DNA from: Methylocystis sp. SC2 | GTDB lineage: Bacteria > Pseudomonadota > Alphaproteobacteria > Rhizobiales > Beijerinckiaceae | DNA length: 64,000 nt | Assembly (NCBI RefSeq): GCF_000304315.1 | Contig: NC_018485.1 | Coordinates: 1,830,501-1,894,500, forward strand | Direction of reading: 5' to 3' | Shown: positions 1,709-61,079 of the stretch, in pieces | How positions within the stretch are numbered: position 1 is the stretch's first letter | How the letters are laid out: each line of letters opens with the position of its first letter | Made by a program: the position numbers and the translations under genes | The notes under the pieces: generated by a model | What the model was told of the DNA's origin: nothing | Database searches by the model: none | What the model saw: only the letters and a program-made list of their open reading frames with translations

Positions 1709-2059
1709 TGCGAGGACGACTCCGTTTGCAAGCGATCGACTGGGCGCGTCATGAAAACCGGTCTCCACGGTCAATTGCGGGTGCTCATCACAACAACGCC
1801 GTAAACGGTTCTAGCAAAACGCGGACGCAGCCTGCCGGGCGCAGGATGCGGATGGGCTCCGACCATAGGAAGACGGAGGGCGCCGTCCGTCGCCTGTCGC
1901 GCCGCACACGAATCAACCCCAATCTAAAGCGCAATCGCTCAAAACGGAATCTCTGGAGCCAAAAGAACGGCCTCGCCCACGACGGGGACGGGCGGCGGAT
2001 GCGCGCATTTTGCTATCATATCTGCTTGGAGGAGCCGCGAGGGCTATCGTCTCGGCGAT
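1709..2059. other. Intergenic region between divL-like gene and RAYT remnant
   Basis: About 350 bases with no convincing gene. The first bases contain CGTCATTGCGAGGA, overlapping the divL-like start codon, a motif common at the ends of alphaproteobacterial intergenic repeats. The weak open frames here are low-complexity Arg-rich translations and are not called. Confidence 0.4.
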
Positions 2060-2272
2060 ATGGTCAAGAGCTGGAAGACGTTCACCGCCCGTAGAATCAA
2101 TCATGCGCGCGGCGGCGCCGGATCGCTTAGGGCGCCCGATTATTTCGACCGCTATATGCGCGACAAGGACGATTTAGGAGACACGGTCGCCTATATCGAA
2201 AACAATCCCGTCGTCGCTGGACTCGCCGCGCGCTCCGAGGCGCGGCCATGGTCCTCCGCGGCGAAGAGGTGA
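2060..2272 (+). pseudogene. C-terminal remnant of a REP-associated (RAYT, Y1-type) transposase
   Basis: The frame encodes the tail of a RAYT/TnpA-REP protein: VKSWKTFTARRINHARG, then DYFDRYMRDKDDLGDTVAYI, then ENNPVVAGL and RPWSSA. These are the conserved C-terminal blocks of the family (WKsfta..iN, DYfDRYiRd, yIeNNPvkAGL, WpWSSA). The N-terminal half, with the HUH metal site and catalytic tyrosine, is missing: upstream codons in this frame show no match. About 70 of the usual 150-200 residues remain, so this is a dead fragment. RAYTs mobilise short palindromic REP sequences. Whether the 3.8-4.0 kb intergenic repeat is related is unknown. Confidence 0.7.
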
Positions 2273-2392
2273 CAAAGCCCCTTCGACGCTCAGATCGGAC
2301 CGCGAGGCTCTAGGCTCGCACTTTTTGCACGCTCTCGGCCATGCGGGGCCTGGAGGCGCGCGGTCCAGCGGCGCGCCCCGTCGGCCGCTCCG

Positions 2393-3802
2393 TCAATACC
2401 GGTAATGCTCCGGCTTGAACGGGCCGTTCTTCGGCAGGTTCAGATATTTTGCCTGCTCGTCGGTCATCTGCGTCAGCTTCACGCCGATCTTGGCGAGGTG
2501 CAGCGAGGCGACCTTCTCGTCGAGATGCTTGGGCAGCGTGTAGACGCCGACAGGATACTGGCCCTGCTTGGTCCACAATTCGATCTGCGCCAATGTCTGA
2601 TTGGTGAAGGACGCCGACATCACGAAGGAGGGATGGCCCGTCGCGCAGCCGAGGTTCACGAGGCGGCCTTCGGCGAGCAGCAGGATGCGCTTGCCGTCGG
2701 CGAACTCGATCTCGTCGACCTGCGGCTTCACATTGTGCCACTTCAGGTTCTTTAGGCCGGCGACCTGAATCTCCGAGTCGAAATGGCCGATGTTGCAGAC
2801 GATGGCGCGGTCCTTCATGGCGCGCATATGGTCGACGGTGATGACGTCGACATTGCCCGTCGCCGTGCAGAAGATGTCGCCGCGCGGCGCGGCGTCTTCC
2901 ATCGTCGTCACTTCATAGCCTTCCATCGCCGCCTGCAGGGCGCAGATCGGGTCGATTTCGGTGACGAGCACGCGGCAACCGGCGTTGCGCAGCGAAGCGG
3001 CCGAGCCTTTGCCCACGTCGCCATAGCCGGCGATGACCGCGACCTTGCCGGCCATCATCACGTCGGTGGCGCGGCGCACGCCATCGACCAGCGACTCGCG
3101 GCAGCCATAGAGATTGTCGAATTTCGATTTGGTGACCGAGTCGTTGACGTTGATCGCCGGCCAGAGGAGCTTGCCCTCCTTGTGCATGACATAAAGGCGA
3201 TGCACGCCGGTGGTCGTCTCTTCGGTGACGCCTTTGATCGCCTCGGCGTTGCGCTTGTAGAAGCCCGGATTGGCCTTCAGGCGCTTCTTGATCGAGGCGT
3301 AGAGAACCTCTTCTTCCTCATTCGATGCGGTTTCGAGGAAGGCGACGTCGCCCTGCTCGGCGCGCAGTCCAAGATGGATGAGCAGCGTCGCGTCGCCGCC
3401 GTCATCGAGGATCATGTTCGGGCAGCCGCCGTCGCCCCATTCGAAGATCTTGTGGGTGTAATCCCAATAATCTTCGAGGCTCTCGCCCTTTTTGGCGAAG
3501 ACCGGCGTGCCGGTCGCGGCGATGGCGGCGGCGGCGTGGTCCTGCGTCGAATAGATGTTGCAGGAGGCCCAGCGCACGTCGGCACCAAGCGCCTTCAGCG
3601 TCTCGATCAGCACCGCCGTCTGGATGGTCATGTGCAGCGAGCCGGCGACGCGCGCGCCCTTGAGCGGCTGCGACGGGCCATATTCGGCGCGGGTCGCCAT
3701 CAGGCCGGGCATTTCCGTCTCGGCGATGGCGATCTCCTTGCGGCCCCAGTCGGCCAGCGAAAGGTCGGTGACGGCGAAATCGTTAAAGTGATGTGCGGTC
3801 AT
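2393..3802 (-). CDS. ahcY: Adenosylhomocysteinase (S-adenosyl-L-homocysteine hydrolase)
   Basis: The enzyme cleaves S-adenosylhomocysteine to adenosine and homocysteine using bound NAD, keeping methylation reactions running. The protein is about 469 residues, full family length, and ends in the conserved KPEHYRY. Visible blocks are [20 protein letters not shown], the substrate-site [13 protein letters not shown] with its Lys and Asp, the Rossmann NAD loop [10 protein letters not shown], and GNVDVIT. The frame could begin at 3847, but the start at 3802 (MTAHHFNDF) is chosen because AGAAGGA lies 6 bases upstream. It is downstream of, and divergent from nothing on, the same strand; the divL-like gene follows it on the minus strand. 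Its leader contains a 162-bp repeat and, further out, an ATAAAGA/TCTTTAT palindrome. Confidence 0.97.
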
Positions 3803-11823: not shown

Positions 11824-12828
11824 CTATTGGACGGCGGCAGGTGGGACGGGAGCGCTCGCCGCCTTGTCATAGGCGTTCTTTTCGCTGCCTGACAGCATCG
11901 CCGGATCTTCCTCGATGAGCTGCTTTCCGCCGCGATCGTCGGTGGGCCGCGCGGCGACGGGCGCCGCCGCCAGGCCGGTCTGATGCGCGAGCCAGCTTCG
12001 CCAGTGATCGGCGGAGCCGTTGAACGTGTTCTGGTCCACTGCGCCGGTGATGCCCGGCACGCGCCCGTCCGAGCGATACTGCCAAAAAGTCCATTTGCGG
12101 TCGCCGTAACGCACCTGTGGGTGATATTTCGTCGAGCGCACCCAGATCGGATATTCGGACAGCGCGTCGGAGTGCAGAATCGCCTGATAGAAGTCGACCG
12201 AGGAATAGATGATCGGCTTCTTGCCGTAATGGCGCTCCATCTGCGTGAGCATGTCCTTCATGTCGCGCAGCACTTCCTCGCGATAGAGCGTGCGCTTGCA
12301 GGTTCCCGACGTCGGCGTCGCCTCGACATCGAGCACGGGCGGCAGCGCGTCGGGCTCATTCGGCACGACGCTGGCGAAATTGCCGATCTCTTCATGCGGC
12401 TGGCGGCACCAGTAAACGAAGTGATAGGCGCCGCGCGGCACGCCGGCCGCCTTCGCCGCCGCCCAATTGTAGGCGAATTTCGAATCGACCCGGTCGCCGC
12501 CTTCCGTGGCCTTGATGAAGGCGAAGGAGACGCCCGCGTCCTTGACCTGCTCCCAGTCGATATTGCCCTGATATTTCGAGACGTCGATGCCGTGGACGGC
12601 GAATTCGGCGCTGCGCGTCGCCGGAAATTTATGCAGATCCGACTCCGGCACGGCGTAGGCGAGAAAGCTCGGGTCGCGCTTGGGATTGATCAGCGGCGCG
12701 CTGGTCTGGAACCGCGGCCGGCGCGAGAAGCTCGGGTCATAGGAGCTGCCGCAGCCCGCGAGCGTCGTCGCCAGGGCGGCGCAGACCAGGGCGGCGGAAA
12801 TCAGCGAAAAAAATTTCAACGGGCGCAT
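11824..12828 (-). CDS. GH25-family lysozyme lipoprotein
   Basis: The 334-residue secreted muramidase has a signal peptide at residues 1-25 ending in the lipobox LAGC, so it is anchored as a lipoprotein. The GH25 domain starts at HGIDVSKYQGNIDWEQVK (Asp of DxSxyQG). It continues with FAFIKATEGG, GAYHFVYW, PPVLDVEAT (catalytic Asp/Glu) and KWTFWQYRSDG. It cleaves the MurNAc-GlcNAc bond of peptidoglycan and probably serves wall remodelling. A Pro/Ala-rich tail follows. Confidence 0.93.
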   Translation of the reverse strand: MRPLKFFSLISAALVCAALATTLAGCGSSYDPSFSRRPRFQTSAPLINPKRDPSFLAYAVPESDLHKFPATRSAEFAVHGIDVSKYQGNIDWEQVKDAGVSFAFIKATEGGDRVDSKFAYNWAAAKAAGVPRGAYHFVYWCRQPHEEIGNFASVVPNEPDALPPVLDVEATPTSGTCKRTLYREEVLRDMKDMLTQMERHYGKKPIIYSSVDFYQAILHSDALSEYPIWVRSTKYHPQVRYGDRKWTFWQYRSDGRVPGITGAVDQNTFNGSADHWRSWLAHQTGLAAAPVAARPTDDRGGKQLIEEDPAMLSGSEKNAYDKAASAPVPPAAVQ

Positions 12829-12880
12829 TTCTCCAGATTATCCCGCAGGCGGTAACGGAGCGTAAACGCGCCGACGCGCC

Positions 12881-14293
12881 TCAGCCCAAATGGAACCACA
12901 AACTGGCGATTGTAAGGAAGGCCCCGTAGCCGACCACATCGGTGATGGTGGTCACGAAAGGCCCCGAAGCGACCGCAGGATCGAACTTGAGCTTGTCGAA
13001 GGCGAGCGGCACGACGATTCCGCCCAAGGCGCCCGCAACGAGATTCGTGAACATCGCCATGGCTATCACTGGCCCAAGTCCAACATTATGGAACCAGTTG
13101 GCGGCGACGATGCCGGTCACGAGGCCAAAGGCCGCGCCATTGACCGCGCCGATGGCCAGCTCCCTGAGAATAATCCGCAGGGCGTTGGCGCGGGTCAGCT
13201 CGCGGGTGGCGAGCGCCCGCACGGCGACGGTCATGGTCTGGGTCGCGGAATTGCCGCCCTGTCCCGCGACGATCGGTCCGAGCACCGCCAGCGCCACCAT
13301 TTGCTCCAGCTGCGACTGAAAGGTCTTGAGCACGCTGGAGGTGATGAAGGCGGTCAGCATATTGACCGAGAGCCAGGTGAAGCGGCTCCGCGCGATCCAC
13401 CAGAAATTGTCGGTCAGCTCTTCTTCGGGGTTCACGCCGCCGAGCGCCAGGATCTCGTCCGAGGCCTGCTCCTGAATGACGTCGACGATGTCGTCGATGG
13501 TGAGAACGCCGACGAGCCGTTCGGATTCATCCACAACCGGAACCGAGACGAGATTGTAGCGCTCGAAGAGCCGCGCCGCCTCGGCGCCGTCCTCGGTCGC
13601 ATTCACCCGCCGCCGATCCTCCTGCATGATCTCGTCGAGCCGCGCGCTTGGCTTGGCCCGCACCAGAGCGTCGAGAAAAACGGTCCCCAGCAAACGGTAG
13701 CCGGGATCGACGACGAAAACTTCGAAGAAGTTTTCGGGCAGATTCTCTTCGCCGCTCTCGCGAAAAAAATCGAGCACGCGCCCCGCCGTCCAGAACGGCG
13801 GCGCGGCGACAAAAGTCGTCTGCATCAGGCGCCCGGCGGAATCCTCGGGATAGTCCAGCGAGCGGCGCAGGACGATCCGCTCTTGCGCCGGGAGAGCGTC
13901 GAGGACCTCCGCCTGTTCTTTCGGCTCCAGACCTTCGAGAATGGCGACGGCGTCGTCGCTTTCGAGTTCGCGCACGCCCTCGATGAGCGTCTCGACCGGA
14001 AGTTCCTCGAGGATGTCCTCGCGGGTCGCTTCGCCGACCTCCATCAGGGCCGTAAAGTCGAAGTCCGCGCCCATCAGCTCCACGAGGCGCGGTCGCGCTT
14101 CGTGGCTTAGGAGCTCCAGCAGGGCGCCAAGATCCGCCTCATGCAGGTCGCCGACGAGTTCGTGAATCCGCTCCGAGTCGCCCAGCGCGATCGCGCCTTC
14201 GACGTCCAGAACGAATTCCCGGCTGAGAGACGCCTCTCCGCCGTCGCGGAAGTCCTCGGCGGGGGGCGCCGTATCTTCATGATCGAGCGGCAT
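12881..14293 (-). CDS. mgtE: Magnesium transporter MgtE
   Basis: The 470-residue protein has the full MgtE layout. A helical N domain carries LLSHEARPRLVELMG and the repeats LEGLEPKEQAEVLDALPAQE; two CBS domains follow (VDPGYRLLGTVFLDALVRAK and VSVPVVDESERLVGVLTIDD). Five membrane helices at the C-terminus include GPIVAGQGGNSATQTMTVAV and a terminal block PFVTTITDVVGYGAFL with the pore Asp. It imports Mg2+ (or Co2+), gated by Mg2+ binding to the cytosolic domains. It is divergent from the deacetylase gene. Confidence 0.95.
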   Translation of the reverse strand: MPLDHEDTAPPAEDFRDGGEASLSREFVLDVEGAIALGDSERIHELVGDLHEADLGALLELLSHEARPRLVELMGADFDFTALMEVGEATREDILEELPVETLIEGVRELESDDAVAILEGLEPKEQAEVLDALPAQERIVLRRSLDYPEDSAGRLMQTTFVAAPPFWTAGRVLDFFRESGEENLPENFFEVFVVDPGYRLLGTVFLDALVRAKPSARLDEIMQEDRRRVNATEDGAEAARLFERYNLVSVPVVDESERLVGVLTIDDIVDVIQEQASDEILALGGVNPEEELTDNFWWIARSRFTWLSVNMLTAFITSSVLKTFQSQLEQMVALAVLGPIVAGQGGNSATQTMTVAVRALATRELTRANALRIILRELAIGAVNGAAFGLVTGIVAANWFHNVGLGPVIAMAMFTNLVAGALGGIVVPLAFDKLKFDPAVASGPFVTTITDVVGYGAFLTIASLWFHLG

Positions 14294-32539: not shown

Positions 32540-32611
32540 GTAGCGGAGGAGCGCTACCGCCTTTCCCCACAACACCCAAACATACGCTATTGTCTCCGAT
32601 CGTGCGCCTGA
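32540..32611 (+). repeat. 72-bp dispersed repeat, left copy
   Basis: Matches 56096-56167 at 61 of 72 positions with no gap, in the same orientation. It starts with a stem-loop GTAGCG-GAGGAG-CGCTAC. Read on the minus strand both copies stay open for 24 codons, ending WGKAVALLRY here and WGKTVALLRY in the right copy. Confidence 0.75.
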
Positions 32612-52380: not shown

Positions 52381-53952
52381 GTGACAAAGCCAACCCGACA
52401 CCTCGGTTTCGAACCACCAAGACTCGAGAAGGGAACCCGGGCGGCTGAGTATGTCCGCATGTCAACTGACCATCAAAAATATTCGACCGAGAACCAGTCA
52501 GATGCGATCCGTCGCTACGCCGCCGAACGATCGCTCGATATCGTCAGAACCTATGCCGATGCGGGCAAGAGCGGTCTCAACATCGATGGACGAGACGCGC
52601 TGAAGCGCTTGATCGAAGATGTGGAGAGCAAGCGCGCTGATTTTGAAACGATACTCGTTTACGACGTTAGCCGATGGGGTCGCTTTCAGGACGCCGATGA
52701 AAGCGCCTTCTACGAGTACATCTGCAAGCGTTCCGGAATCACTGTCCGATATTGCGCGGAACAATTTGAAAATGACGGAAGCCCGGTCTCGACGATCGTA
52801 AAAGGCGTGAAGCGAGCCATGGCAGGTGAATATAGCCGCGAACTGTCGACTAAAGTGTTCGCCGGCCAGTGTAGGCTGATCGAACTCGGGTTCCGCCAAG
52901 GCGGTCCGCCTGGATTCGGATTACGCCGCAGGCTCGTCGATCAAACCGGAGTTCCAAAAGCCGAACTCTCGCGAGGAGAACATAAAAGCCTCCAGACAGA
53001 TCGCGTCGTTCTTGTTTCCGGCCCCGACGCCGAGATCGCCGTGGTTCGGGAAGTTTATCATCGCTTCGTCGAAGAAAGCCTGTCGGAGCGCCACATCGCC
53101 GATGACCTCAACGTGCGAGGAATCACGACCGATGCGGGACATCCCTGGACGAGAGGAACCGTTCATCAGATTCTGATCAACGAAAAATACATTGGAAATA
53201 ATGTTTGGAATCGCGTGTCTTTCAAGCTGAAAAAGAAGCGTGTCCGAAATCACCCCGATATGTGGATTCGCTCAGATGGGGTATTTCCGGCCCTCGTCGA
53301 CGCAAAGCTTTTTTCAGAAGCACAAGAAATCATTCGCGCACGATCTCTTCGGTTGTCCGATACGGAGATGCTCGACCTCCTCCGCCAGCTTCGAAAAAAC
53401 GTTGGACTCTTGTCGGGCTTGATCATTGACGAAGCCGAGGGGCTTCCGTCGAGCAGCGCGTATCGAACACGGTTTGGCAGCCTCTTACAAACTTATCGTC
53501 TCATTGGCTATACGCCACGGCGAGACTATTGCTACATCGAAATCAATCGCCGCCTTCGCGCACTTCATGAGAACGCGATCGCCGCCATCGTGGAAAGTCT
53601 TCGGGGCGTCGGTTGTCAGTTGTCCAATGAATCGAAAAATGGCCTCCTGTTCGTCAACAACGAAGTTACTCTCTCGATCGTGATCGCTCGCTGTGCGCGC
53701 ACCCATGGCGGCTCCTATCGATGGCGGTTGCGATTCGACGCTGGTCTCCAGCCCGACGTGACAATCGCGGTGCGCATGGACGCAGAAAACCGAACGCCTC
53801 TTGATTATTATCTGTTGCCTCGAATCGATATCGCGGCCGAAAAATTGAAGCTTTCCGAGGACAACGGCCTCGCTCTAGACGCCTATCGTTTCGATTCGCT
53901 TGATCAATTTGTTGAATCCCTAGCGCCCATCACGATCACGGAGACCGCGTGA
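52381..53952 (+). CDS. Large serine recombinase
   Basis: The 523-residue protein has an N-terminal resolvase domain (residues about 20-170): AAEYVRMSTDHQKYSTENQS with the catalytic Ser and the Arg-rich block VYDVSRWGRFQDADESAFYE. A recombinase domain follows (FGLRRRL, RHIADDLNVRGITTDAGHPW then TRGTVHQILINEKYIGN) and a long C-terminal region without the usual zinc ribbon cysteines. Such enzymes insert and excise DNA at att sites. It overlaps the ParB-like gene at its 3' end, a trio seen in many Rhizobiales. Confidence 0.92.
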   Translation: MTKPTRHLGFEPPRLEKGTRAAEYVRMSTDHQKYSTENQSDAIRRYAAERSLDIVRTYADAGKSGLNIDGRDALKRLIEDVESKRADFETILVYDVSRWGRFQDADESAFYEYICKRSGITVRYCAEQFENDGSPVSTIVKGVKRAMAGEYSRELSTKVFAGQCRLIELGFRQGGPPGFGLRRRLVDQTGVPKAELSRGEHKSLQTDRVVLVSGPDAEIAVVREVYHRFVEESLSERHIADDLNVRGITTDAGHPWTRGTVHQILINEKYIGNNVWNRVSFKLKKKRVRNHPDMWIRSDGVFPALVDAKLFSEAQEIIRARSLRLSDTEMLDLLRQLRKNVGLLSGLIIDEAEGLPSSSAYRTRFGSLLQTYRLIGYTPRRDYCYIEINRRLRALHENAIAAIVESLRGVGCQLSNESKNGLLFVNNEVTLSIVIARCARTHGGSYRWRLRFDAGLQPDVTIAVRMDAENRTPLDYYLLPRIDIAAEKLKLSEDNGLALDAYRFDSLDQFVESLAPITITETA

Positions 53953-54848
53953 TGCCTGTCTCGCGCGATCAGAAAATCGAAATGATACCGATCAACCAGA
54001 TAAATGTGCTCAATCCTCGTGCGCGCAACAAGCGCCTTCACCGCGAGATTATTGATAATATCGAAACGATTGGACTAAAGCGGCCGATCACCGTCAGTCG
54101 ACGGTCGGGAGCAAGCGTGAATCGGTATGATCTTGTATGTGGAGAAGGACGTCTCGAAGCTTTTCGTGTCCTGGGCGCAACGGAAATTCCAGCGGTCGTC
54201 ACCGACGCTTCCGAACCTGACTGTCTCGTGATGAGTCTCGTCGAAAATATCGCGCGGCGACAACATCGTCCCATAGACATTATGCAGGAGATCGGGAGTC
54301 TCCACGAACGAGGCTACTCGGACACTGAAATCGCTCAAAAGATCGCCGTATCCGCCAATTGGGTCGGCACGATCGTTGCGTTACTGGAGCGAGGCGAGGA
54401 GCGACTGTTAACAGCTGTTGAAACAGGTCTCATACCCGTCAGTTTCGCAATCGATATTGCCCGGGCGGATCACGCCGAAGTCCAGAACGTGCTTATGGAC
54501 GCCTATGCCGCTGGAAAAATCAAGGGCAAGAAGCTCGTCGCTGTTCGCCGCCTGCTCGATCAAAGGGTGAAGCGAAGCAAGACCATCCGGGGCAACCCAC
54601 CCGGCCGTAAGAGTCCTCACAAGAAGATCACTCCCGACGAGCTTATGCGGCTTTATCAACGCGAGGCTGAAAAGCAGCGCCTTCTCGTCAAGAAGTCAGA
54701 CTATGCTCAGGCCAAGCTCCTTTTTGTCGTCGAGGCCCTTAAAGATCTGTTGACCGAGGCGGCCTTCACGACGCTACTTCGCGCCGAACGCCTCGATACG
54801 ATGCCTCGTGCTTTAACGGCGCGAATTTCGAAGGAGCATTTGCATTGA
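53949..54848 (+). CDS. ParB/Spo0J-domain protein of the recombinase trio
   Basis: The 299-residue protein has the ParB N domain (IPINQINVLNPRARNKRLHR, GLKRPITVSRR, and the CTPase/nuclease-type motif LVCGEGRLEAFRVLGA). The box MSLVENIARRQHRPID and the HTH YSDTEIAQKIAVSANWVGTI follow. It could bind a centromere-like site of the element. The start overlaps the recombinase stop by four bases, and its own stop overlaps the next gene, so all three are co-translated. Confidence 0.88.
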   Translation: MMPVSRDQKIEMIPINQINVLNPRARNKRLHREIIDNIETIGLKRPITVSRRSGASVNRYDLVCGEGRLEAFRVLGATEIPAVVTDASEPDCLVMSLVENIARRQHRPIDIMQEIGSLHERGYSDTEIAQKIAVSANWVGTIVALLERGEERLLTAVETGLIPVSFAIDIARADHAEVQNVLMDAYAAGKIKGKKLVAVRRLLDQRVKRSKTIRGNPPGRKSPHKKITPDELMRLYQREAEKQRLLVKKSDYAQAKLLFVVEALKDLLTEAAFTTLLRAERLDTMPRALTARISKEHLH

Positions 54849-55774
54849 CCCACCGGGACGTACGAAACGCTCCAGACATCAAACTGGGCTTTCTAAGAGA
54901 AACGATAAAACTCACTCTCAATCAAATCGTCCCGCTCAAGACGCTGCGGCCTGGAACCAAGTCCGGGAAGAAATACACGCAGATCGTCAGTTCTGTGCGC
55001 GCGATCGGACTTGTCGAGGCGCCCGTGGTGACGCCGGACAAGAGACGCGCCGGATCGTATTACCTGCTCGACGGTCATCTCCGCATAGAAGCGCTCAAGG
55101 ACCTTGGCGTCAATGAAGTTGAATGTTTGATCTCAACGGACGATGAAACATACACATACAATAAGCGCCTGAATCGGCTGGCCGCGGTTCAGGAGCATCG
55201 CATGATCGTTCGGGCGGTGGATCGGGGAGTTCGACCAGAGCGAATTGCGGAAGCCTTGCACCTCGATGTCGTGACGATCCGGCGTCGCTTTCGGATGCTC
55301 GACGGAATATGCCCTGAAGCAGTAGAGCTACTGAAAGATACGACATGCCCGATGATCGTCTTCGAAATCCTTCGCGAGATGGCCCCGATCCGTCAGGTGG
55401 AGGCCGCCGAATTGATGATCGGACAAAACAATTTCTCGTCGATGTTCGCAAAGGCGCTCCTGGCGGCGACGAACGAGAAACAGCTTGTCGATCCCCGGAA
55501 GAGGAAGCCCAAAGGGCCGAACACCATTACGTCCGATCAGATCGCAAAACTGGATCGCGAACTGACCAGCTTGCAGGTTCAAGTGAAATCGATCGAGGAC
55601 AGCTACGGCATCGACAATCTCCATTTGACGTTGGCCAAGGGTTATGTCGCAAAGCTCCTCGGGAACGCGCGGATCGTTCGATGGCTGGTTCAGAACCGAC
55701 AGGAATATTTGAATGAATTTCAATCGATCGCTGAAATCGAGAATATCGGCACTGGAAAAGCAGCCGCCGAATGA
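54845..55774 (+). CDS. RepB-like plasmid-partition protein of the recombinase trio
   Basis: The 309-residue protein has a ParB-like N domain (YYLLDGHLRIEALKDLGVNE) and the HTH RPERIAEALHLDVVTIRRRF. A RepB C-terminal domain (REMAPIRQVEAAELMIGQNN, then FSSMFAKALLAATNEKQLVD) follows, with a coiled-coil end. It is the third gene of the recombinase operon. A true plasmid would have parA next to it, which is absent here, so partition in the usual sense is unlikely. Confidence 0.85.
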   Translation: MTHRDVRNAPDIKLGFLRETIKLTLNQIVPLKTLRPGTKSGKKYTQIVSSVRAIGLVEAPVVTPDKRRAGSYYLLDGHLRIEALKDLGVNEVECLISTDDETYTYNKRLNRLAAVQEHRMIVRAVDRGVRPERIAEALHLDVVTIRRRFRMLDGICPEAVELLKDTTCPMIVFEILREMAPIRQVEAAELMIGQNNFSSMFAKALLAATNEKQLVDPRKRKPKGPNTITSDQIAKLDRELTSLQVQVKSIEDSYGIDNLHLTLAKGYVAKLLGNARIVRWLVQNRQEYLNEFQSIAEIENIGTGKAAAE

Positions 55775-55920: not shown

Positions 55921-56361
55921 CCCAGTGTAATGATTCGGGCGCGCCGCTTGAGCTTCTAAAATGCTCGCGGCGCGTCCCCGGGAGCGACGCCGCATTCGCG
56001 CCAGTTGTGGCGCGCGGACCCGGACCAACAAGTTACGCATTCATGCTACAGTGAACTATATCGTACTCTAGCGAAAAATATCGCGCTCCAGAGGAGTAGC
56101 GGAGGAGCGCTACCGTCTTTCCCCACAACGACCAACTGTACGATATTGTCTTCGGGCGTGCGCTTGATTTTCCGGGCGAGTCAGATCGAGCTAGGCCATT
56201 CGCTGCTTCTGGCATACGACCACCATCTGCCGGTCGCGGACTGGGGCGATTTCCACGTTCGCCTTGATCGTCAGGATGGCGTACGCCTCAGGTCAGCGCA
56301 CCGCTACGCGCTTGATACGTGTACACGAATACGCTATTTGTGTGTCACGTGGAGGCGCTCA
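55921..56361. other. Intergenic region at the right side of the recombinase module
   Basis: About 440 bases with the right copy of the 72-bp dispersed repeat (56096-56167) and no intact gene. The segment near 56040-56090 is AT-rich and could hold a promoter for the toxin-antitoxin operon. Confidence 0.4.
56096..56167 (+). repeat. 72-bp dispersed repeat, right copy
   Basis: Same orientation as the copy at 32540-32611, 61 of 72 identical. It begins with the stem-loop GTAGCG-GAGGAG-CGCTAC. Between the two copies lies the resistance region and the recombinase trio. Confidence 0.75.
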
Positions 56362-56808
56362 ATGACGATAGCGGATAAGGCTAAGCTCAAGGCCAAGACG
56401 AAGGCGCGGCGAGCGATGAAGGAAGGTATCACTCTCGAAGCGTTAGTCGATCGCCTTGGCGATCGAGCCGCCAGGGAATTCTTCAATCGGATCGACGGCA
56501 CCCTTCGCGAGGGAACAGTAATCGTCGGCACCAGTGTACGCGATGCCCGTGTCGGCTTCGGTAAGGCGATGACCAGTAGCGTCAAGGTGGTCGTTCCGAG
56601 GCGTACGAGTGGCCGTAGGCGGAGCTCGGTCGATCCGTCCGAAGGATTTGTCATCATGAAGATCGACGATCTTGAGGCCGTCGTGCGCGCGGGTCAGGAC
56701 GAGTTCGACTGGGGGCAGGCGTTCGCGCCGCGCGCCGGGCTCGAAGCCGCGACTACTACGCCGGTGCTCAAGCGCGGGTCCCGCGGTCGGCGTCACCTGC
56801 AGGTCTGA
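56362..56808 (+). CDS. Antitoxin-like protein preceding a PIN-domain gene
   Basis: About 148 residues from the ATG at 56362 with GGAGG seven bases before it. It is Lys/Arg-rich at the N-terminus (DKAKLKAKTKARRAMKEGIT, then LEALVDRLGDRAAREFFNRI) and has a beta-rich middle (REGTVIVGTSVRDARVG). No named antitoxin family is recognised; the role is inferred from its position one base before the PIN gene start. Confidence 0.55.
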   Translation: MTIADKAKLKAKTKARRAMKEGITLEALVDRLGDRAAREFFNRIDGTLREGTVIVGTSVRDARVGFGKAMTSSVKVVVPRRTSGRRRSSVDPSEGFVIMKIDDLEAVVRAGQDEFDWGQAFAPRAGLEAATTTPVLKRGSRGRRHLQV

Positions 56809-56809
56809 T

Positions 56810-57253
56810 GTGTACCTGCTCGACACGCAACAGGTGATGGATCTGTTCAGTCGCGATGCGGCGAGACCCGTCTTCCAATGGCTCGAGGAGACCAGGCCCG
56901 GAAAAAGCGATCTTTTCGTGAGCGTCATCAGCCTGGGGCAGATCGCTCACGCCATCGAGGACATGGGTGTCACTCAGCGCAATCACTGGCGCCGTCTTTA
57001 CCAGGAAGGACGTCGGGACTTCGAGCAGTCTGGTGGCGTCATCGATGTCGATGCCGCGATTGTGGACGTTTGGCAAGCCGGTCTTCGCGGCGATCGCCTG
57101 ATTGATGTTCCCGATGCGGACGATGAACTCGGGGAGGATGATCGTCTGATTTTCGCAACGGCGATCGCCCGCGGCTATGCGCTCGTTACGAACGGGTCGC
57201 GGCAACTCCAGGACATCGCGGAGCGGACCACGCTCAGCATGATCGAGATATGA
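56810..57253 (+). CDS. PIN-domain toxin (VapC-like ribonuclease)
   Basis: The 147-residue protein starts with GTG: VYLLDTQQVMDLFSRDAAR carries the first acidic residue. The second conserved acid of VapC (usually ElxxG) is Gln here (VISLGQIAHAIEDMG), while the last acids are present (ADDELGEDDRLIFATAIARG then YALVTNG). A changed second acid may weaken catalysis, or a nearby Glu (HAIE) may replace it. It overlaps the patatin gene by ATGA. Confidence 0.8.
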   Translation: MYLLDTQQVMDLFSRDAARPVFQWLEETRPGKSDLFVSVISLGQIAHAIEDMGVTQRNHWRRLYQEGRRDFEQSGGVIDVDAAIVDVWQAGLRGDRLIDVPDADDELGEDDRLIFATAIARGYALVTNGSRQLQDIAERTTLSMIEI

Positions 57254-58230
57254 ACAGCCGAAAACTCGATCCCGGCGAACTTCCCAGAGGGGAGCGGCGC
57301 GGGCGGCGCGAGCGACACCTTCTCGCCCTAACCGGCGGCGGTTACCGCGGGCTCTTTTCAGCCGAGATCTTGGCCGCGGCCGAAGCGGAAGGCGGCGTCC
57401 CGCTCGGCAAGCGCTTCGACATGATAGCCGGCACGTCCGTAGGTGGGATTCTCGCGATCGGGCTTGCCAGCGGCGTGCTGGCGCGCGATCTCGTGGCGTT
57501 CATGCGCGAGCATGGACCGGCGATCTTTCAACCTAGGCCGCTGTCATTCGCAGGCTTCTCCAAATCCCGCTATGGAAATGGTGGCCTGCAGCGCGCGATC
57601 GAGGCAGTCCTCGGAAAGCCCCGCGCGCAAAGGGCTTTTGCCGACATTCCCGTCCCGCTCGTGGTCTCCGCGGTGCAGGAAGGTACAGGCACACCGTATC
57701 TCTTCCGATCCAGCGCTGCGGCGACCGGAAAGGGAGACGAGGTCTCGACCCTCGATGTCGCGCTCGCAACCTCGGCGGCGCCGACCTATTTTCCCCCGCA
57801 CCGGATCGGTGACCGGGTCTATGTCGACGGTGGTCTTGTGGCCAATGCCCCGGATCTGGTCGTTCTAACCGAGGCAGCGCGGCAATTCGGCTGCCGCATC
57901 GAGGAATGCCATCTGCTCAGCATCGGAACGGCTGGGGCGCCACGGGCCGGCGCCGTCGATGGCGCGCCTGGAAAGATTGGCTGGCTCGCCCGGCACGCCA
58001 TCATTGACCTCATTATGACGGCGCAGGAGGCGCTGGCGATCGATCAGGTTCGGTGTTTGCATCCTGGCACGTTTCTTCGGATCGATGCCAAGCCGGCCCA
58101 ACGGATCGAATTGGACGACACGAGCACCGTCGCGACGAAAACGATCATTGAGCTCGCGCAGAAGGCCATCGAGAACACCCGGCAGACGCAGGCCGCGGAG
58201 TGGCGGCGGTTTCTGGCGTACTTGGCTTGA
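57250..58230 (+). CDS. Patatin-like phospholipase
   Basis: The 326-residue protein has the oxyanion loop LALTGGGYRGLFSAEIL, the nucleophile elbow MIAGTSVGGILAIG with the catalytic Ser, and the dyad Asp in VYVDGGLVANAP. No signal peptide or membrane segment is visible, so it is cytosolic. Such enzymes act as membrane-damaging effectors in CBASS (CapV) and other defence systems, but no cyclic-nucleotide synthase is near. Its start overlaps the PIN toxin stop, which suggests a single three-gene system. Confidence 0.87.
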   Translation: MNSRKLDPGELPRGERRGRRERHLLALTGGGYRGLFSAEILAAAEAEGGVPLGKRFDMIAGTSVGGILAIGLASGVLARDLVAFMREHGPAIFQPRPLSFAGFSKSRYGNGGLQRAIEAVLGKPRAQRAFADIPVPLVVSAVQEGTGTPYLFRSSAAATGKGDEVSTLDVALATSAAPTYFPPHRIGDRVYVDGGLVANAPDLVVLTEAARQFGCRIEECHLLSIGTAGAPRAGAVDGAPGKIGWLARHAIIDLIMTAQEALAIDQVRCLHPGTFLRIDAKPAQRIELDDTSTVATKTIIELAQKAIENTRQTQAAEWRRFLAYLA

Positions 58231-58320
58231 ACAATCGACCAGCGGTGGAGATCGTGCGGCTGTGGGAGGCTTCCCCCAGAGAGGGGCTGGCCGAGGCCGA
58301 GAATTCATGGGGGCTGATTT

Positions 58321-59625
58321 TTGGGTACTGAGATCACATTAGATGTTGGCAGCGTATCCCTCACCTATAGCAAGAATTTCTGTGGGATTGATCACGGCTC
58401 ATTGTTCCAGGAACAGGATCGCAAGCGTGTTCGTGGGAAGCAGATCGACTATGATTATTTTGAGGAAACGGGAAAAAGTCCCGTGGCCATGGAGATGGCT
58501 CTCTCGCGTCCGTTGAAGGATGTCGTTCCCAGGCTCCAGTTGCTCGGCTTCTCGCTTGAACGGGTGAAGCGGGAATATGAGCGCACGGCAGAGGCATGGC
58601 GCGAGGAGCGGCGGTCTTTGGCCGACGATGAGCAAGAGCCCTTGCCGGACCTAATGAGCTTCGACGAATTTCGCCAGTTCGTGACACGGCATCCGCTCCG
58701 TAGTTTAGACGAAACGTTCGTCTCGGGTACTGGTAAAGCAAACGAGGCAAGTGTTCGCGGACGCTTCAACAACGAGGGGATCACCGCTCGACTCCCTCGC
58801 TATTCGCCTTTCGATTTCCAGGCATACTCGGAGCGAACCTATTTTGGCGAGCTTGTGAACATCATGCATCCATACTCGGTTATGCGCTTGCTAGCGGAAT
58901 GCAAGGCGAACGAGGACGACGAGGTTATCTGGCACTATGGACCGCTGGTGGATGCAGGCTGGGCGAACGAAAGTGATTTCGTGCCGAACGCGCGGCGAAC
59001 CGAGACCTTCCTGGTCGCCACTGAGGGGAGTTCGGACGCGCATATCCTTAAGCACGCATTTGGATTGCTTCGACCAGAGATCGCGGATTTCTTCCGGTTC
59101 ATCGACGTTAGCGAAAGCCATCCATTTCCGGGCACCGGCAACCTGCTCAAGTTTGCGGAAGGGCTCGCGAAAATCGACGTGCACAATCAGGTTGTCTTCC
59201 TGTTCGACAATGACGCGGAGGGCTTTGATGCCCATCGGCGGCTCTCCAACCGCCTCCTGCCGGTCAACATGCGTGCCATCATGCTGCCTGAACTGGATCG
59301 GTTTCGCGCCTTTCGGGCGCGTGGACCTGAGGGGGTAAGCGAAACGGACATCAATCGACGGGCGGCGGCAATTGAATGCTATCTGGACCTCGACGCCGGA
59401 GGATTTCCCCCCGCGCAGGTGCTTTGGACCAATTACAAGAGGGAAGTGAAGGCCTACCAAGGCTCCTTGGAGCACAAGGAGTCCTACATCAAAGAATTCT
59501 TGAGGCAGACACCCGATACGCTGTCGGCAGGCTCTTACGACGCGAGCAAGATCAACACAGCGCTCGACGCCCTCGTATCCGAGTGCAGTTCCATCGCAGC
59601 AGCCACGCGGAACCCTACCGCGTAG
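58321..59625 (+). CDS. HEPN/Toprim-associated defence-type protein
   Basis: The 434-residue protein starts with TTG (GGGGG upstream): MGTEITLDVGSVSLTYSKNF then DHGSLFQEQDRKR is the HEPN/Toprim N-terminal domain. The middle includes YGPLVDAGWANESDFVPNAR. The Toprim half has the Glu motif FLVATEGSSDAHILKHAFGL and the DxD motif VVFLFDNDAEGFDAHRRL. Such proteins are thought to cut nucleic acid in defence against phages. It follows the patatin gene by about 90 bases on the same strand. Confidence 0.8.
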   Translation: MGTEITLDVGSVSLTYSKNFCGIDHGSLFQEQDRKRVRGKQIDYDYFEETGKSPVAMEMALSRPLKDVVPRLQLLGFSLERVKREYERTAEAWREERRSLADDEQEPLPDLMSFDEFRQFVTRHPLRSLDETFVSGTGKANEASVRGRFNNEGITARLPRYSPFDFQAYSERTYFGELVNIMHPYSVMRLLAECKANEDDEVIWHYGPLVDAGWANESDFVPNARRTETFLVATEGSSDAHILKHAFGLLRPEIADFFRFIDVSESHPFPGTGNLLKFAEGLAKIDVHNQVVFLFDNDAEGFDAHRRLSNRLLPVNMRAIMLPELDRFRAFRARGPEGVSETDINRRAAAIECYLDLDAGGFPPAQVLWTNYKREVKAYQGSLEHKESYIKEFLRQTPDTLSAGSYDASKINTALDALVSECSSIAAATRNPTA

Positions 59626-59766
59626 ATCGGTTCGATTCGCGTGATGGCGGTTCCAGTGAGTGGAGATACCCGAACGAAAATTGCAACGGATTGCAAGGCT
59701 AATGTTAAAAATTTCTCGTTCTCACCGAGCATATCATTACACCAATCACCATACCAAACCTGAGCC

Positions 59767-60618
59767 GTGACGATGCTATTCTTTGAAAATGAATGGAGGT
59801 TCGAGAGCCCCGGTAGCATTGAGCGAGACGTGGAAGCTGGCTTCCTCGATCTGATCAATCGCATCTGTGGTCAGGGCAATCGCCAAAACATCTTAGAACA
59901 TTTCAAATCGCATTTCTCCGCTGCGGCAGGCCGTCCCCACCACGTCAGCAGCAATGCGAGTTGGGCGGCGAGTGATTTGGAAACAGAGATGAGCTACGCC
60001 GCCACCAATGCGCCGCTCTTCATTGAAGCTTTTTACAGCGCCTGCGAGGAGCTACAGCAGAGGCCAGACATCGCCCTGCCGGATATCGGCAGGATCAACC
60101 GCATTCTTTCCGATGCTGGTGCTGGGTATCAGATCGACCCACCGAATCTTGTCGCTACTCGTGTACACATTCCGATCGCGGTGCCGGAGCAGCCGCCCTC
60201 GCTCGACGTGCAGGCCCAAACCCTGATTGATGAAGCCCTTCGAGCCTCTGAGCGCGCTCTTGCTGAAGGAAATGGTCGGCAGGCAGTGCAGGAAGTCGTG
60301 TGGCTTCTGGAGACGATCGCCACTGCGTTTCGGAGCCCCGATATTTTCGACGGCAGCATTCAGGGGCGATATTTCAACAAGATCGTCCCTGAGTTGCGTC
60401 AGCGAGGGCGCGGGCATCAGGAACAAATTTTCGGGTGGATGATGACGCTGCACGGCTATCTATCTTCGCCGACCGGAGGCGGTGTCCGCCACGGCGTCGA
60501 CCTGAAAGAGGGGCTGGCGCTTCAACTCCACGAGGCGCGGCTCTATTGCAATCTCATTCGCAGCTATCTGACCTTCCTGATCGCTGAGCATGAGCGGTTG
60601 AGCCGAGGCGGGGCTTGA
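59767..60618 (+). CDS. Unrecognised Abi-like protein in the defence cluster
   Basis: About 283 residues (or 281 from an ATG at 59773). The C-terminal part (ALRASERALAEGNGRQAVQE, VVWLLETIATAFR, then GGGVRHGVDLKEGLALQLHE) is helical and resembles the Abi_C/RloB-type nucleic-acid-associated tails, with a conserved GxRHG. The N-terminal 130 residues have no family I can name. Context, not sequence, suggests abortive infection. Confidence 0.5.
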   Translation: MTMLFFENEWRFESPGSIERDVEAGFLDLINRICGQGNRQNILEHFKSHFSAAAGRPHHVSSNASWAASDLETEMSYAATNAPLFIEAFYSACEELQQRPDIALPDIGRINRILSDAGAGYQIDPPNLVATRVHIPIAVPEQPPSLDVQAQTLIDEALRASERALAEGNGRQAVQEVVWLLETIATAFRSPDIFDGSIQGRYFNKIVPELRQRGRGHQEQIFGWMMTLHGYLSSPTGGGVRHGVDLKEGLALQLHEARLYCNLIRSYLTFLIAEHERLSRGGA

Positions 60619-60680
60619 CCTCGCGGAGCCTCTCAGGAAGTTGCAACGCGCTGCAGCGAGGGTGCGGGCGTACCTCGCTA

Positions 60681-61079
60681 TCACGCGCTCTTCATCACCT
60701 TGTTGAAATCTATGTCGTAGCCCGCCTCGTCCAGCTCCTTCGCAAGCTGCATCTTCCATGCGCCCGCGCTGTCCCATTTGACATAGGCGACGCCCACGTA
60801 GTCGGTCGCCATTTCGATATCGTCCTTGAGTAGGGCGCACACTTTGTCCCGACCGAGGCGTCCGACGAAGTATCCCAACTCAAGGATGACGTTCTGACGG
60901 GTGCGCGGCTTGTCCTCGGTTGTGTTCTTAGCGCGGCCCACGTCATCTGGGGTGAGAAGAACCACCGCGAAGCCGACGTTGCCGTGCTTGATAAGCCTCT
61001 CGGGGATCGTCATGCCCCCGTTGGCCTTCTCGTGAAAGATCACCGCCTCTGCGATCGAACGCCAGTTCTCTGTTGCCCC
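60681..61079 (-). pseudogene. 5'-truncated TIR-like nucleotide-binding protein (PF10137 type)
   Basis: The minus-strand frame encodes the C-terminal two thirds of the predicted nucleotide-binding TIR-like domain: IFHEKANGGMTIPERLIKHG, GFAVVLLTPDDVGRAKN, RTRQNVILELGYFVGRLGRD and a typical end AGYDIDFNKVMK. The first strand with the VHG motif is missing; upstream an in-frame TGA at about 61080 and the DUF932 leader interrupt it. A GTG at 61043 leaves a 120-residue product. Related domains are NAD-degrading or nucleotide-sensing effectors in phage defence. Confidence 0.75.

Follow-up and report, generated by a model that had tools for sequence, protein, structure and literature searches.

CBASS operons of the CapV type combine a patatin-like phospholipase effector with a DncV-like cyclase, and a CD-NTase within the operon marks the system. 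In Phd-VapC (VapBC-type) type II toxin-antitoxin pairs, a small first gene is followed at once by the gene for a PIN toxin with conserved catalytic acids. Three-component toxin-antitoxin systems carry a small repressor-like gene and a further protein that may be needed for control of the toxin. To our knowledge, no described three-component member has the make-up reported here. A unit of patatin, PIN and antitoxin was not described in the titles and abstract openings of open-access papers among the matches listed, and the words patatin and phospholipase are absent from the main text of PMC10440598. We regard the novelty of the patatin/PIN/antitoxin-like module as provisional.

The locus lies in the window, a stretch of 64,000 nucleotides from Methylocystis sp. 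SC2, whose genome is a single contig of 3.77 Mb. Three co-directional, abutting genes form the unit, and the relevant features are as follows.

56096..60926, strand not assigned: block holding the unit, 98.3% identical to positions 7297-12116 of L040, a Methylocystis MAG contig whose left flank differs
56312..56340, + strand: possible promoter TTGATA-17-TATTTG, read by eye; same sequence in L040
56362..56808, + strand: gene 1, possible Phd-like antitoxin/repressor, 148 aa (ATG 56362, stop 56808)
56810..57253, + strand: degenerate PIN-domain protein, 147 aa (GTG 56810, stop 57253), Pfam PF01850
57250..58230, + strand: CapV-type patatin phospholipase, 326 aa (ATG 57250, stop 58230), assigned by PF01734, NF041079, PADLOC, tree and residues

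An earlier note on this DNA had placed the stop of gene 1 one base ahead of the PIN GTG and had the PIN stop overlap the patatin ATG by four bases; the coordinates bear out both junctions. The three genes presumably share one transcript. The evidence for a promoter or palindrome element at 56312..56340 is weak. The eye-read promoter does not appear in the output of a promoter scan, and the 10-base palindrome in its spacer, CGTGTACACG (56318-56327), is not above chance, since 42 of 200 shuffles were as good.

Recurrence of the unit and its surroundings

The order small gene, degenerate PIN gene, CapV-type patatin gene was found in seven lineages: the window (with L040), Rhizobium L51/94 (L044), Sphingobium xenophagum (L045), Qipengyuania (L046), an unannotated record of R. 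leguminosarum (L079), L187 (with L193) and L194. L187 and L194 lie in genomes from outside the window's class but within its phylum, and in four of the seven lineages the unit is plasmid-borne. The junctions, with start codons chosen by the analyst, are given in bases in the order window, L044, L045, L046, L079, L187, L194.

Gene 1 to PIN: +1, +2, +6, +8, +4, -4, -4
PIN to patatin: -4, +1, +1, -4, -4, -1, -11

Lengths of -11 to +8 bases would fit translational coupling. Because the same order with tight junctions occurs in six further lineages, the three-gene arrangement is more than chance. The earlier note had staked its idea of a three-gene system on adjacency of the PIN and patatin genes, and the idea passes this check: a PIN gene and a small gene lie directly upstream at every locus found of the patatin group.

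How widespread is the unit? A tblastn search with the window patatin returned 263 plasmid records, all below 60% identity. Twelve contexts were examined among the 30 matches listed; eight were CBASS loci with a DncV-like cyclase and four were PIN-linked, with two small genes abutting the patatin in place of the cyclase. One of the lineages, L079, was recognised by profiles that had not been trained on it (gene 1, 1.6e-11; PIN, 2.4e-27). Searching instead with the Sphingobium PIN gave 11 plasmid records, of which eight have an adjoining patatin by coordinates (copies of L045/L046, and L079); the remaining three are VapC genes at 27.6% identity. Two ordinary VapC matches, one of them from these records, had no patatin within 2 kb.

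Genome samples were searched as well, and all counts from them include the window's own genome. Of 298 family genomes, 125 had a match to the window patatin at E <= 1e-3, and the 30 best places were examined. With a profile of PIN-linked patatins, matches at E <= 1e-40 came from 19 genomes of the class sample (385) and from 14 of the order sample (249); in the phylum sample of 398, nine genomes matched at E <= 1e-50. The only further PIN-linked locus among those examined was in G1069, a genome of the phylum sample outside the window's class. In its genus the patatin was present in 3 of 31 genomes (E <= 1e-50), with a PIN gene directly upstream in all three and no DncV-like cyclase in the stretch examined. 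Altogether, 150 of 194 loci contained a patatin: 37 with a DncV-like cyclase (E <= 1e-4), 13 with a PIN gene and none with both. These 150 include some places fetched twice, and PIN genes were counted by a 600-base rule that missed those present in L191 and L193.

Searches outside cellular genomes, and searches that did not start from the patatin, added no members. None of 54 patatin loci on viral contigs had a family PIN, the PIN profile found no relative on viral contigs, and one family PIN used against phage records had no match. Neither the window's own PIN nor its gene 1 matched anything on plasmids; the family was reached via the patatin, not via queries with the other two genes. The window PIN matched in 5 of 249 order genomes; outside its own genome, the identity in the other four was 27-34%. 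A PIN-family profile matched in 52 of 385 class genomes, the window's included, and 29 of the matched places, when examined, had no patatin in the stretch examined. L013, L015 and L016 proved on reading not to be PIN-linked, and L189 has neither a PIN gene nor a DncV-like cyclase. From this sampling of genomes, viral contigs and phage records, the unit is rare. We conclude that the conserved three-gene module is real and rare.

The L040 contig is the nearest named match to the window. Besides the unit, the block shared with L040 covers a HEPN/Toprim gene at 58321-59625, a gene for a 283-aa protein at 59767-60618 and a portion of a TIR gene; none of its five complete genes differs in length between the two copies. 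Between the copies, dN/dS (NG86) is about 0.47 for gene 1, 0.30 for the PIN gene, 0.36 for the patatin gene, 0.53 for HEPN/Toprim and 0.08 for the 283-aa gene, values that rest on 5 to 20 changed codons per gene and resolve selection weakly. The HEPN/Toprim gene (PF18871, 8.8e-73) and the 283-aa gene, which has no family match, both follow the unit and travel with it in L040; the L044 unit, too, has a PF18871 gene nearby (1818-3107, minus strand). At 60681-61043 (minus strand) is a TIR gene of the CAP12/PycTIR type that looks truncated, because only the C-terminal part of the PADLOC PDC-S35 models is matched; at this gene, L040 carries some 1 kb of different DNA, in which an ORF at 12115-13107 looks integrase-like by eye. 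A 72-base repeat (85%) occurs at 56096-56167, the left boundary of the shared block, and at 32540-32611, with a third partial copy at G000:C1:2417000-2417036. Just left of the block, a serine recombinase gene is followed by two overlapping RepB/ParB-like genes (52381-55774), a stretch that does not align with L040.

The phospholipase and its relation to CBASS

The window patatin matches Pfam PF01734 (E 6e-26), scores 239.2 bits against a cut-off of 200 with the NCBIfam model NF041079, "CBASS cGAMP-activated phospholipase", and matches the PADLOC CBASS phospholipase effectors at 1.6e-73. The nucleophile of the GxSxG motif and the aspartate of the DGG motif, Ser63 and Asp193, are kept in all seven lineages and in 15 of 15 cyclase-linked controls, as expected of a patatin-like phospholipase. 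PMC12802263 uses CapV S62A.

The earlier note had brought up the patatin effectors of CBASS. Its kinship with CapV enzymes stands; the trees add that the PIN-linked patatins form a group of their own. Support for that group was 83/92 with six rows, 100/98 with seven and 95/96 with nine in three trees, which were midpoint-rooted and built from chosen rows (38, 41 and 43) and not from every locus; L194 sits on a long branch, and L088, which had a very long branch in the first tree, was left out of the second and third. The nine patatin rows representing all seven lineages were separated from the 15 cyclase-linked CapVs in 100% of 200 bootstrap trees.

The two groups also differ in their residues. 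All 15 cyclase-linked CapVs have Lys153 and His156, and none of the seven PIN-linked lineages does. His207 (15/15 against 0/7), Glu208 (15/15 against 2/7) and His269 (13/15 against 0/7) behave similarly. The pattern was first noted on 13 versus 5 rows, and the later-found L187 and L194 fit it. We dropped His207 as a marker: by alignment, Arg occupies this position in the solved V. cholerae CapV (8zr9). The same alignment gives 8zr9 the Lys and His of the Lys-Thr-x-His motif. The patatins of L015 and L016 keep the Lys-Thr-x-His and His-Glu motifs by reading, and there is no DncV-like cyclase within about 1.5 kb of them. A literature search for the CapV residues that bind cGAMP did not find them. 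The loss of Lys153 and His156 is suggestive only of a loss of activation by cyclic oligonucleotides.

The earlier note had also reported that no cyclase lies here, and this held: none that is DncV-like occurs in the annotated or scanned neighbourhood of the window unit. At no PIN-linked locus did an ORF resemble any of three DncV-like cyclases, and other cyclase clades were excluded by annotation for L044-L046 and by Pfam for the neighbours in the window. The patatins of L044, L045 and L046 are publicly annotated "CBASS cGAMP-activated phospholipase", with no cyclase annotated adjacent.

Perhaps the patatin is still a CBASS effector that is activated by a cyclic dinucleotide made in trans, with genes 1 and 2 regulating its expression only? 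The match to the NCBI CBASS lipase model speaks for this, as does the presence of candidate cyclases in two hosts. The window genome has a separate patatin and DncV-like cyclase pair (L041; PF21654, 74.9 bits), and in Rhizobium L51/94 a different plasmid carries a CBASS (L077). The L041 pair is compact, with frames that overlap by four bases (L041 5468-7860, G000:C1 2850467-2852859), and adjoins ORFs that appear phage-derived by eye. Used as a query, the L041 cyclase protein found no relative in the L040 MAG, a result limited by the MAG's completeness not being given, or in the four plasmid records; the window genome served as positive control. A PF21654 family search likewise returned nothing from the MAG or the four plasmids, and its controls were also silent. 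Some hosts thus have a cyclase that could act in trans, and in another none was found. Against activation from a distance stand this missing cyclase, the absence of Lys153 and His156 from all seven lineages, and the conserved dead PIN, which it leaves without a reason. We consider it unlikely, and the model name "CBASS cGAMP-activated" is probably misleading for the window patatin.

Gene 1 and the PIN protein

The label "antitoxin-like" that the earlier note gave to gene 1 fared unevenly. At E <= 0.1 the window copy matches no family of Pfam, PADLOC or NCBIfam, and for it the label expresses position; in position and length it is as in the six other lineages. Elsewhere the label gains a little from weak matches to Pfam Phd_YefM, all below the curated cut-off, in L045 (0.0014), L046 (0.047), L079 (0.002) and L187 (0.0011), and in the plasmid relative L185 (3e-5). 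L044 gave no Phd_YefM match; these Pfam runs, on gene 1 and PIN alike, covered the six lineages other than L194.

A profile of gene 1 from all seven lineages matched small proteins encoded immediately ahead of PIN genes in L007, L050, L053 and L056, and a protein beside a second PIN ORF in L051. All five pass the Pfam Phd_YefM cut-off. That the profile matches true Phd antitoxins upstream of PIN genes suggests that gene 1 and the PIN gene descend from a Phd-VapC pair. Leave-one-out profiles recovered gene 1 of three of the seven lineages (L045, L046 and L079) and missed those of the window, L044, L187 and L194. Against the other gene-1 proteins, hhalign placed the window protein at E 0.016 with a probability of 2.9% over 28 columns. 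The window gene 1 is among the weakest members of the family and barely recognisable as Phd-like. Predicted structures, each built from two near-identical sequences, were unusable for both gene 1 (mean pLDDT 37.4) and the PIN protein (39.1).

We compared repeated words upstream of gene 1 with 300 dinucleotide shuffles, as a measure of operator-like repeats. Words of 11 bases in L044 and L045 (0/300 each) and of 9 bases in L046 (3/300) stood above the shuffles, and L079 was marginal (17/300). Repeats were not above chance in the window (299/300), L187 (51/300) or L194 (154/300). Single palindromes upstream of gene 1 were nowhere above chance, the best being that of L046 (16/200 shuffles).

In Ensifer and Sinorhizobium, a relative of gene 1 stands ahead of a 296-aa protein instead (L184 3995-5295; L186 4010-5242), with the frame of the relative in L186 apparently broken. 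The 296-aa protein has no Pfam match above cut-off and is possibly another toxin for the same antitoxin family, as if the partners of gene 1 had been exchanged.

The window PIN scores 35.7 bits against PF01850 (cut-off 23.6), and among solved structures the closest are those of FitB and VapC proteins (2h1c, E 3e-4). The window is the only lineage to pass the Pfam cut-off; L079 falls just below (22.0 bits), and L044, L045, L046 and L187 have no Pfam PIN match. Leave-one-out PIN profiles found all seven left-out members at E 6.5e-8 or better, and for L044, L187 and L194 an ordinary VapC outscored the left-out protein. Membership of the family thus rests on the linked patatin and on position as much as on PIN similarity.

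The earlier note had pointed to a Gln in place of a catalytic acid of the window PIN. Residue 44 is indeed Gln there and Glu in 33 of 33 control proteins, and the loss extends beyond the window. We compared positions 5, 44, 111 and 132, which we take to be the catalytic acids of VapC, with 33 ordinary PIN proteins drawn from a window-PIN search of order genomes and a PIN-profile search of class genomes. Residues are given in the order window, L044, L045, L046, L079, L187, L194; position 132 and the L187 and L194 proteins are aligned with less certainty.

Position 5: D, S, S, S, S, G, T (ordinary PINs: Asp 33/33)
Position 44: Q, T, Q, Q, H, I, L (ordinary PINs: Glu 33/33)
Position 111: D, E, T, G, S, L, E (ordinary PINs: Asp 33/33)
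Position 132: Q, A, Y, Y, Y, Y, E (ordinary PINs: Asp 28/33)

None of the four acids is kept as such in six of the seven lineages; the window retains two, Asp5 and Asp111, with Gln44 and Gln132 at the other positions. The catalytic acids of a VapBC toxin are thus not conserved in the family. The suggestion that the PIN protein is not a nuclease is strengthened by this family-wide loss, and the family PIN looks like a pseudo-enzyme; with two acids kept, the window protein may have residual activity.

Two further explanations of the first two genes must be weighed. They might be an ordinary, decayed VapBC-like plasmid-maintenance pair, with the patatin a passenger that has a role of its own. The PIN protein is recognisably VapC-like and the loci lie in mobile, defence-rich DNA, both of which speak for this view. 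However, the pairing is kept in seven lineages with frames that abut or overlap, the patatins of these lineages group together, and a decaying pair is not expected to remain open and coupled over such divergence. We find a passenger patatin rather improbable. Least probable of all is a two-effector toxin-antitoxin system in which the PIN protein, with altered metal ligands, still cleaves RNA and the patatin damages membranes: the window PIN keeps Asp5 and Asp111 and three changes elsewhere are Asp to Glu (position 111 in L044 and L194, position 132 in L194), but no lineage keeps Glu44 and only the window keeps Asp5, residues that all 33 ordinary PINs retain.

Proposed protein control and comparison with known systems

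We favor the reading that the unit is a single mobile module with its origin in a Phd-VapC toxin-antitoxin pair, and put its probability at about 0.58. In its favor are the shared order and junctions, the grouping of the patatins with their intact dyad, the lost PIN acids, the absence of any locus with both PIN gene and DncV-like cyclase, the Phd matches of the gene-1 profile, the repeats upstream of gene 1 in L044, L045 and L046, and the plasmid location in four lineages. Counting against it are the poor recovery of gene 1, the low PIN scores outside the window, the lack of repeats above chance in the window, L187 and L194, the two acids kept by the window PIN, and the negative results from phage records and viral contigs. 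The CapV-type phospholipase would be the present toxic output. The PIN protein would be a VapC that has lost its RNA-cleaving activity and now links the antitoxin-like protein to the phospholipase, as adaptor or sensor. Repression of the operon would fall to the antitoxin-like protein, which together with the PIN protein would hold the phospholipase off. Breakage of the complex, either by phage infection or by decay of a labile antitoxin after loss of the replicon, would release the phospholipase, which would then attack the inner membrane, so that the cell stops growing or dies. Formation of the complex, the direction of inhibition, the trigger and a role in defence or addiction are the parts that we infer.

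A bolder version sees a new kind of gated suicide module, in which a Phd-VapC pair with an enzymatically dead VapC has replaced the cyclic-nucleotide switch of CBASS. Protein-protein control through the pseudo-PIN adaptor would then hold and release the CapV-type phospholipase, an effector that would have left CBASS and acquired another trigger. We give this version slightly less than even odds. The earlier interpretation of the locus as a whole, a toxin-antitoxin unit that may have recruited a membrane-damaging effector, is supported in part: the adjacency is conserved, the family-wide loss of acids favors a PIN protein that is no nuclease, and the patatin is akin to CapV enzymes, in a group of its own.

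If the favored reading is true, an immune effector has moved from second-messenger control to toxin-antitoxin control. A VapC toxin would have been kept for a role other than RNA cleavage, giving a pseudo-enzyme family with a clear partner. The module would also account for some of the solitary CBASS lipases to which annotation pipelines give the label cGAMP-activated with no cyclase alongside.

How does the unit compare with the systems it resembles? With CBASS of the CapV and DncV-like cyclase kind it shares a homologous patatin effector with the Ser/Asp dyad, and the window copy passes NF041079. Unlike CBASS, it has no adjacent DncV-like cyclase, its patatins lie apart in the tree and lack Lys153 and His156 in every lineage, and it adds a small gene and a degenerate PIN gene upstream. 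Like Phd-VapC pairs, it begins with a small gene and has a PIN gene at once after; unlike them, it has lost the PIN acids and carries a patatin as its third gene, and the window gene 1 is not recognised as Phd by Pfam. Compared with the three-component toxin-antitoxin systems, the unit differs in that its extra protein is a degenerate PIN and its presumed toxin a phospholipase.
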